Assembly (NCBI GenBank): GCA_020850225.1
Contig: JADZFD010000063.1
Location: forward strand, 1 to 64,000
Source of the DNA: Saprospiraceae bacterium
GTDB lineage: Bacteria; Bacteroidota; Bacteroidia; Chitinophagales; Saprospiraceae
Reading direction: 5' to 3'
DNA length: 64,000 nucleotides
This document shows positions 9,858-12,643 of the stretch, piece after piece; within the stretch, counting starts at the first letter, position 1; each line of letters starts with the position of its first letter. Below the pieces are notes generated by a model. It worked only from the letters and a program-made list of their open reading frames with translations. It ran no database searches and had not been told where the DNA came from. The translations under genes were made by a program, and so were the position numbers.

Positions 9858-10571
9858 TTATGAAAAATGTTTCATGAACACTATTTCCTTTTCTGCAAGC
9901 ATTCTGCTCCAGCCTCTTTTCAGATCTTTTTTTGTAATACCTGCGAGAAAAGTACAATCCAGTTTTTGAACAATCATTCCATTTTCCTTAAAAAAATCAA
10001 AAACATCCGAATACATACCACCCAGCATTTCCAAACCAACCTTATGCTGCGTTTCTGTATCTTCAATTGATTCACAATTTATCCTGATATCATTTTTAAA
10101 AAGATAATACTTCTCATCTGTATTATTTTTAACCTTCCAGGGATGGTCTATGGTCACTTCAAATACCATCTTAAGCTGGTGTCCGTATTGTGACAATTTA
10201 CTCAGGAGTTCCGAATCATCGGTCATGACAACCAATCCGCAGGTAATTGAATTGGGATTTCCCAAAGCTGTCAAAGGTTTATCAGTGTTTTTCTTAATTA
10301 ATGCATTAACATCCGATTTTAAGTCATTTTCTTTTCCATCAACAGGAGTCTGATATGGCTTGTTAATTACCAGATATGTATAGTTTTTCTTAGGAGTAAT
10401 TCTTTTGTTTTTAACAGTAATTATATCATTTTCACCTACTTCTAAAAAGGGTTCCTTCACTACCTTTCCATTAAGAGTAACGAATCCGGCTTTCACCCAT
10501 TCTGCTGCCTGGTTTCTGCTACAGATACCGGATTGTGCTATATACTTATTGAGACGCAGGATTTCGCTCAT
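9858..10571 (-). CDS. RluB/RluF-type pseudouridine synthase homolog, catalytic Asp replaced
   Basis: This 237-residue protein has the layout of the RsuA/RluB/RluF family: an N-terminal S4 RNA-binding domain (LNKYIAQSGICSRNQAAEWV...G.VTLNG, residues about 5-55) and a synthase-like domain starting YLVINKP. In active enzymes the core reads GRLDxxTxGLLxLTND, with the Asp essential. Here the aligned segment is GNPNSITCGLVVMTDD, so Asp is Asn. The second family motif, EGRNRQIRRM, is replaced by GGMYSDVFDF, while the flanking G..V.KL spacing is kept. The frame is intact and the S4 domain looks normal, so this is not a decaying pseudogene. It may bind RNA without modifying it. The gene lies 27 bp downstream of dnaB, likely co-transcribed. 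Confidence 0.8.
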   Translation of the reverse strand: MSEILRLNKYIAQSGICSRNQAAEWVKAGFVTLNGKVVKEPFLEVGENDIITVKNKRITPKKNYTYLVINKPYQTPVDGKENDLKSDVNALIKKNTDKPLTALGNPNSITCGLVVMTDDSELLSKLSQYGHQLKMVFEVTIDHPWKVKNNTDEKYYLFKNDIRINCESIEDTETQHKVGLEMLGGMYSDVFDFFKENGMIVQKLDCTFLAGITKKDLKRGWSRMLAEKEIVFMKHFS

Positions 10572-10598: not shown

Positions 10599-12158
10599 TT
10601 AAAACGGTATAGATCCGTCATCCGTTATTTCGTCACTATTGGTATCAATACTAAAATCATGATTCATCTTGGAAGGTTTGGTAATAATGGCCCCAGCTGA
10701 AAACGGATCAGCAACAAAAGGATCGTTAAAGTTATCACTGAAACCGGTATCCCCCGGATCTTCAAATTTAACAAATTGTGGAACAAATCTAAGGTTTACT
10801 GTACCCAGACTACCATTTCTATGTTTTGCAAGGATGATTTCTGTCAAATCTTTAGGTTTATCGGTATCCGTAACTCCATAGTAATCCGGCCTGTATATAA
10901 AAGTAACGATGTCGGCATCCTGCTCAATAGCTCCCGATTCCCTCAAGTCAGAAAGCTGTGGACGCTTATCTCCTCCCCTGCTTTCTACATTCCTTGACAA
11001 CTGTGATAAGGCAATCACCGGGACATGCAGCTCTTTTGCAAGTCCTTTTAATGCGCGGGAAATAGATGATATTTCCTGCTCCCTGTTACCACCACCCTTT
11101 CCGGTTGGGGAACCAGACATCAATTGAAGGTAATCTATGATAATCATTTGTATATCGTGATTCTGTTTGAGACGCCGGCATTTTGCCCGAAGTTCGAAGA
11201 TGTTGATACCGGGTGTATCATCAATAAAAATGGGTATCTGGGACAATTTATCAACGGCAGCATGCAGTTTGAGCCACTCGTGATCTTCGAGTTGTCCGCT
11301 TCTAAGTTTACTGGAATTAATTTCTGCCTCCATGGCTATCAATCTCTGTACCAACTGAATATTGGCCATCTCCAGGGAGAAAAAGGCAATTGGTTTTTTG
11401 GCTTCAGCTGCATTCTTAGCCAGAGAGAGTGTAAATGCTGTTTTTCCCATACCGGGACGTGCAGCCATAATAATGAGGTCAGATTTTTGCCAGCCATTGG
11501 TCATCTTATCCAGCATAGCAAAACCGGTGGTCACCCCAGTCATATCCGAACCTTTTTCACTTACAGACTCGATCTCTTTTTGCGCTTTGACGACAAGTGA
11601 TGCCAGCGATTCATATCCTGTATTCAGGTTCTGGTCTGATATTTCATAGAGATTCCTTTCTGCATCATCCAGCAGTTCAAGTACATCTTTAGTATCTTCG
11701 TAGGCTTCACTGATGGTCTGCGTACTGATCCGGATCAATTCGCGTTGAATGTACTTCTGAGAGATTATCCGTGCATGAAACTCAATGTTTGCAGCAGATC
11801 CGACCTTATTCGTCAGTTCCATCAGATAAGCTATGCCTCCGATAGCATCCAGTTTGCCGGACTTCTTCAATGCCTCATGAACGGTCAGCAAGTCTATGGG
11901 TTGCGATTTCCCAAATAACTCAGACATCAACTGAAATATCACCTGATTCTTTTCCTGATAGAAGCTTTCCTTTTTTAATATTTCGATAATGGATGGAAAA
12001 GCATCCTTATCAACCATGATGGCTCCTAATACAGCTTCTTCCAGGGGAACAGCCTGAGGTTGTACCTTACCATAAAGCATATCACCTCCTCCTTTATTGT
12101 AGTGCAATTTATTGCTGATTGCTTTAAGTGTATTAGGGTATTCTGACATTGTTGACAT
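10599..12158 (-). CDS. dnaB: replicative DNA helicase DnaB
   Basis: The hexameric 5'-3' helicase of the replication fork. The protein is 519 residues. The N-terminal DnaB domain (about 33-135: VPLEEAVLGAIMVD...) is followed by a linker helix and the RecA-like ATPase, with Walker A ARPGMGKTAF (about 233-241), SLEMA..QLVQRL, Walker B IIIDYLQLM and a C-terminal AKHRNGSLGTV arginine-finger region. A short acidic/Ser-rich tail ends SIPF. No intein is present. The start is ambiguous between Met1 and Met4. A TACCTTTG promoter element (12194-12201) lies 36 bp upstream and three perfect DnaA boxes another 45 bp upstream, so control by DnaA is plausible. Confidence 0.97.
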   Translation of the reverse strand: MSTMSEYPNTLKAISNKLHYNKGGGDMLYGKVQPQAVPLEEAVLGAIMVDKDAFPSIIEILKKESFYQEKNQVIFQLMSELFGKSQPIDLLTVHEALKKSGKLDAIGGIAYLMELTNKVGSAANIEFHARIISQKYIQRELIRISTQTISEAYEDTKDVLELLDDAERNLYEISDQNLNTGYESLASLVVKAQKEIESVSEKGSDMTGVTTGFAMLDKMTNGWQKSDLIIMAARPGMGKTAFTLSLAKNAAEAKKPIAFFSLEMANIQLVQRLIAMEAEINSSKLRSGQLEDHEWLKLHAAVDKLSQIPIFIDDTPGINIFELRAKCRRLKQNHDIQMIIIDYLQLMSGSPTGKGGGNREQEISSISRALKGLAKELHVPVIALSQLSRNVESRGGDKRPQLSDLRESGAIEQDADIVTFIYRPDYYGVTDTDKPKDLTEIILAKHRNGSLGTVNLRFVPQFVKFEDPGDTGFSDNFNDPFVADPFSAGAIITKPSKMNHDFSIDTNSDEITDDGSIPF

Positions 12159-12285: not shown

Positions 12286-12569
12286 ATCAACAATTTTACA
12301 TGTAAAAAGATTACATATGAAGATAGTTATTTTTCAGAAAGCAATCAAATTTCCATATTACATTCCATGACACTTTTTACTAACATATTGAAAAATTATA
12401 CTATACATTGTTTAAACTGAATATATTACATTATATTATAATATATAATGATTGACATTCACCAATATGGCAAATTGTGAAGTTATTCGAAAAAAAATAA
12501 AAAATCAATGTGGAAATTTAATCACATATAATAAACAACTATATGTATTGAATTGATATAATATAAATG
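12286..12569. other. AT-rich non-coding stretch next to the DnaA boxes
   Basis: No open frame of interest. The composition is strongly A/T, especially 12400-12460, which could melt easily. No hairpin or further perfect DnaA box was found. It ends at the 3' end of the tRNA gene. Confidence 0.55.
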
Positions 12570-12643
12570 TCGGGACGACTGGATTCGAACCAGCGACCCC
12601 TAGCACCCCATGCTAGTGCGCTACCAGGCTGCGCTACGTCCCG
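12570..12643 (-). tRNA. tRNA-Pro (anticodon GGG)
   Basis: The minus strand folds into a complete cloverleaf: acceptor CGGGACG/CGTCCCG, D-stem GCGC/GCGC, anticodon stem CTAGC/GCTAG with loop ATGGGGT giving anticodon GGG, and T-arm GCTGG-TTCGAAT-CCAGT. The C1-G72 pair is typical of tRNA-Pro. The length is 74 including an A discriminator, and CCA is not encoded. It lies 11 bp downstream of the hydroxylase gene on the same strand. Confidence 0.96.

Follow-up and report, generated by a model that had tools for sequence, protein, structure and literature searches.

The locus described here raises the question of why a pseudouridine synthase gene would be kept intact after the residues needed for its chemistry have been replaced. 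The gene lies within the window, meaning the whole stretch of 64,000 nucleotides analysed, taken from a Saprospiraceae bacterium (assembly GCA_020850225.1, contig JADZFD010000063.1). A previous reading based on the sequence only (hereafter the sequence-only reading) had described a protein with an S4 domain, a pseudouridine synthase layout and an intact frame, in which the catalytic Asp had become Asn (GNPNSIT) and motif III had turned into GGMYSDVFDF. These observations were all confirmed, and the features of the locus are as follows.

9858–10571, (−) strand: degenerate rluB ortholog, 237 aa, frame intact
10419–10559, (−) strand: S4 RNA-binding domain, residues 5–51 (PF01479, E 4e-12)
10515–10517, (−) strand: S4 Arg19, equivalent to RluB Arg17, kept in 28 of 28 degenerate orthologs
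10242–10262, (−) strand: former motif II, GNPNSIT in place of GRLDxxT, residues 104–110
10161–10163, (−) strand: F137, in the active-site Tyr column (RluB Tyr140; from the alignment and PMC3919597)
9990–10022, (−) strand: former motif III, GGMYSDVFDFF in place of x-GRNRIVRRIF, residues 184–194
9861–9959, (−) strand: conserved C-terminal segment, TKKDLKRGWSRxL...E, residues 205–237
10599–12158, (−) strand: dnaB, directly upstream of the rluB ortholog with a gap of 27 bp

The catalytic domain was matched by PseudoU_synth_2 (PF00849) over residues 66–157, with 30.3 bits against a cut-off of 26.8. The fold was predicted with confidence (pLDDT 87, pTM 0.75; AlphaFold2 with 28 homologs), and the top Foldseek matches were RsuA, RluF and RluB. 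With TIGR00093 the protein scored 26.6 bits, below the cut-off of 109.3, compared with 141.9 and 144.7 bits for active orthologs. Chance or assembly error is not considered to explain the altered motifs, as the same regions were changed in all ten genomes of the genus. The sole tRNA of the window, tRNA-Pro (ggg), is located just upstream of dnaB (12569–12643, (−) strand).

Assignment to the RluB lineage

In many active and degenerate relatives the rluB ortholog was found directly downstream of dnaB, and because this place is shared, the window gene is the positional ortholog of the ordinary active enzyme and not a paralog. The neighbouring dnaB had drawn attention in the sequence-only reading; however, as active orthologs occupy the same place, the adjacency is not remarkable and a functional link to dnaB was rejected. 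The possibility that the gene is rluF was also rejected due to the presence of a separate, intact RluF-type paralog: a second gene with intact GRLD and GLNRQIRR motifs was found in 10/10 genus genomes, and these paralogs grouped with E. coli RluF in the tree (100/100), whereas the window gene did not. RluF and RsuA share the same S4 and catalytic fold and are the best single-sequence and Foldseek matches of the window protein, but RsuA of E. coli and H. influenzae grouped elsewhere on the tree.

The window gene reached no equivalog cut-off that would separate RluB from RluF, and the tree alone does not decide the identity since E. coli RluB forms a long branch. The gene is assigned as the Saprospiraceae ortholog of RluB, the 23S pseudouridine 2605 synthase (PDB 4lgt, 9cl9), by elimination, given the separate RluF clade, and by the GRNRxVRR type of motif III and the K-x-L-x-RG C-tail of the active orthologs to which it corresponds in position and sequence. 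The window protein shares with RluB the S4 and pseudouridine synthase fold, the equivalent of S4 Arg17 and the K-x-L-x-RG C-tail; it differs in that Arg108, Asp110, Tyr140 and motif III have been replaced and the core is no longer basic.

A query with the protein gave a match in 197 of 199 family genomes, where a match may be either the ortholog or the RluF paralog. A query with the genus alignment returned 25 named loci (Saprospiraceae, Portibacter, Lewinella, OLB9 and similar MAGs), and a single-sequence query of the genome contigs gave no matches. No literature linking Saprospiraceae with a pseudouridine synthase was found.

Loss of the active site in the window gene and its genus

E. coli RluB requires Asp110, and this catalytic Asp is universal among active pseudouridine synthases; the R108A and Y140F mutants retain 0.6% and about 3% of activity, respectively, and Arg194 also falls within the conserved motifs (PMC3919597). 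In the window protein the three corresponding columns are occupied by N107 (Asp110), N105 (the base-flipping Arg108) and F137 (Tyr140), and motif III is without any arginine. The changes at the essential Arg of GRLD and at the active-site Tyr are losses beyond those of the sequence-only reading.

The equivalent of Arg108 and the motif III residues were lost in 10/10 genus genomes. The Asp column behaves differently: the two nearest relatives retain Asp, with GTPD at 53% identity and GNPD at 45%, and others carry Thr, Leu, Ser or Gly. Asn was therefore rejected as a conserved substitution, the conserved trait being the loss of Arg108 and motif III. An orthologous comparison had been proposed earlier, in which conserved Asn together with purifying selection would mark a pseudo-enzyme; the selection was found (omega 0.05–0.10 in degenerate relatives, see below) but the Asn varies. 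From these replacements, the predicted lack of pseudouridine synthase activity in the window protein is well supported, and the protein would be expected to be inactive in the test tube.

Recurrence of the loss among relatives

Orthologs collected from Saprospiraceae and its order were classified as canonical in 171 cases and degenerate in 28 (n=199), the latter being distributed over 13 genera of the family; this sample is tilted toward orthologs with a conserved C-tail, as very diverged orthologs could escape detection. Six sequences were set aside from the classification, namely five RluF-type paralogs and one broken alignment. Most of the genomes are MAGs, and the genus and family labels used below (g8, f24 etc.) are group codes. 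The Arg108 column was lost in 28/28 degenerate orthologs; about a quarter of them still have Asp in its column, and some still have Tyr. For motif III, the N187 column was kept in 0% and the R188 column in 8% in the degenerate genera.

Both states occur within one genus in g8, g10, g14, g16 and g33. On a DnaB tree of 52 genomes the state switches 10 times, and well-supported branches force at least 7 of these switches, although these counts of independent losses depend on one gene tree and on the chosen threshold for degenerate; G013, G022, G024, G082 and G099 were not placeable and were left out of the tree. The retained, inactive enzyme of the sequence-only reading thus stands in so far as the protein is very probably inactive, keeps its S4 domain and is under purifying selection, but it is not the peculiarity of one lineage, the loss having recurred about ten times.

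Elsewhere in the order, two degenerate orthologs were found in other families (G247 and G250). Outside Saprospiraceae, recurrence was noted in families f6, f21 and f24–f26. Within the class, the orthologs of families f24, f25 and f26 (L315–L323, L335–L337) read GRLG, GRMD, GKLD, GKMD, DKMD or GRME at motif II; motif III is mostly altered and the C-tail is kept, with genus g196 showing GRMD and an altered motif III in 6/6 genomes read. The orthologs of f24–f26 were classed as intermediate because Arg, Asp and Tyr are all present in some of them, and these may have activity. In G017, G126, G185, G189, G205 and G208 the family search found no RluB-type ortholog or a fragment only, which may represent either gene loss or assembly gaps.

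Two further observations were made on these loci. Long basic low-complexity N-terminal extensions are present in many active orthologs (L014, L019 and L036) and are absent from the degenerate genes of the window genus. It should also be noted that the dnaB beside the degenerate rluB of L276 (G082:C158, positions 2–1795) has an in-frame intein with a LAGLIDADG domain, which the window dnaB does not have.

Selection and the retained parts of the protein

The ratio omega was calculated by the Nei-Gojobori method. The degenerate pair G102/G191 gave an omega of 0.10 (dS 0.69), and degenerate pairs of g42 gave about 0.05 with dS near saturation, the active pairs also being at about 0.05. The degenerate rluB genes are under purifying selection where omega is measurable. 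Within the window genus dS approaches saturation (omega 0.25 for G000/G004), and for this reason selection there is deduced from the intact frames and conservation in 10/10 genomes.

The retention is uneven along the protein. Sixty columns are conserved at ≥95% in active orthologs; their retention in degenerate genera is 95% in the S4 domain and 78% in the C-terminal stretch, compared with 38% in motif II and 27% in motif III. The core of degenerate pairs likewise evolves faster than the S4 domain and C-tail, a contrast seen little in active pairs. The TKKDLxRGxxRxL segment at the C-terminus, absent from the sequence-only reading, is strongly retained: K214, R219, R223 and E229 are kept in about 99–100% of degenerate orthologs, K215 in 92–96%, and D205 and L225, counted over degenerate genera, in 92–99%. 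On the other hand, most degenerate genera lack D81 and R85, which lie after the first core strand, where RluB has its forefinger loop. The mean charge of the core changes from +3.4 in active to −2.0 in degenerate orthologs (−4 in the window protein), with the charges of the S4 domain and C-tail remaining steady at about +3 and +4.

Possible function of the non-catalytic protein

A role independent of its former chemistry is very probable for the protein, because selection keeps it and the same loss arose independently in many related bacteria. The favoured explanation, to which we give about an even chance, is that this RluB ortholog no longer forms pseudouridine and is kept for a task free of catalysis, most likely docking on the 23S rRNA of the pre-50S particle during assembly. 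The pattern is consistent with two functions of the protein, the non-catalytic one alone being strongly selected in these lineages. On the pre-50S 23S rRNA, the loop of the U2605 stem-loop would be held by S4 and the basic C-tail would add a second contact; once docked, the protein might help to fold or protect the peptidyl-transferase region. In RluB, S4 Arg17 holds nucleotides 2593–2595 (PMC3919597), and a structure of the E. coli enzyme bound to a pre-50S particle is available (PDB 9cl9). A role in 50S assembly and binding of 23S rRNA are inferred for the window protein. Whether the same U2605 stem-loop is bound is uncertain, since the groove and forefinger residues which hold it have also been lost, and the conservation of the C-tail may reflect folding alone.

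The state of the target was examined in the available 23S sequences. The segment AACGTCGCAAGACAGTTCGGTC, which contains U2604 and U2605 (E. coli numbering), was identical in the degenerate genomes G004, G013, G018 and G082 and in active genomes, and the G004 and G013 loci were identified as 23S by Rfam. The segment was also sought in the window genome, where no match was obtained, and a 23S match in G006 was left out as its loop differs (GTGA) and it may be a contaminant. Loss of activity through disappearance of the target base is not supported, as four degenerate genomes still carry the UU.

Among other explanations, the most plausible is that the pseudo-enzyme now serves a different partner, whether RNA or protein, and no longer acts as an rRNA assembly factor. 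Examples would be an mRNA, a regulatory function or, as with YlmH and its S4 domain, a stalled ribosome. This explanation is possible but is regarded as clearly less likely, at around one chance in four. The loss of stem-loop-binding residues from the core and the reversal of its charge would agree with it, as would the occurrence of S4 domains in other ribosome-bound factors, YlmH itself giving a weak match in sequence through its S4 domain. However, the S4 and C-tail residues that survive the recurrent losses are those of the active orthologs, and an ancestral shared function is simpler than repeated new ones.

It is improbable that the protein retains weak or changed catalysis through a different residue or on a different substrate. 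The motif Asp of G004 and G006 (GTPD and GNPD), the Tyr of some degenerate orthologs and the intermediate appearance of the f24 orthologs (GRMD with an altered motif III) are consistent with residual activity. Against this, the Arg column whose Ala mutant is nearly inactive in E. coli was lost in every degenerate ortholog, the catalytic Asp is common to all active synthases, and the window protein has lost Asp, Arg108, Tyr and all basic residues of motif III together.

A functionless gene decaying toward loss would account for the fast-evolving core and the few family genomes lacking an RluB-type match, yet it is very unlikely and is disfavoured by the low omega of other degenerate lineages, the strongly conserved S4 domain and C-tail, and frames that are intact in 10/10 genus genomes at 26–53% identity to the window protein. 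Least probable of all, if only slightly less so than decay, is a role in modification control, in which the protein, by occupying the site, inhibits or adjusts RluF or protects U2605; all ten genomes of the genus carry an RluF whose motifs are intact, and E. coli RluF is slightly active on 2605 substrates (PMC3919597), but the proposal has no direct support and requires binding of the stem-loop without the groove.

Comparison with known systems

The assembly role favoured here for the RluB ortholog has parallels in E. coli, where the rRNA modification enzymes RlmB, RlmKL and RlmE take part in 50S assembly independently of catalysis, and RlmB and RlmL continue to assist it when catalytically dead (PMC11194073). 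These differ in being naturally active methyltransferases whose dead forms were engineered, whereas the loss in rluB is natural and repeated. E. coli RluB showed no detectable assembly effect in the delta-10 test of the same study (PMC11194073). It is an old question why bacteria keep rRNA modification enzymes whose deletion barely matters; one answer is that the protein matters and not the modified base, for which engineered dead mutants provide backing for a few methyltransferases. Evolution has apparently run the dead-enzyme experiment many times on one enzyme, with the same protein parts kept each time. It is suggested, tentatively and at slightly less than even probability, that in Bacteroidia RluB performs an ancient function, under strong selection and independent of catalysis, through the S4 domain and the TKKDLxRG C-tail. 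If so, pseudouridine 2605 would be dispensable there and the protein would not, as the active site has been naturally lost in about ten or more lineages. The residues singled out by retention are S4 Arg19, K214, K215, R219 and R223, and species pairs of the same genus with opposite active-site states are available for comparison.

Trypanosome mt-LAF5 and mt-LAF6, one of which is possibly inactive, are mitochondrial and belong to another subfamily. They are nevertheless comparable in being bound at H92 of the maturing mitoribosomal large subunit (PMC8316566), and one chain of their entry 6yxx was a weak Foldseek match to the window protein.
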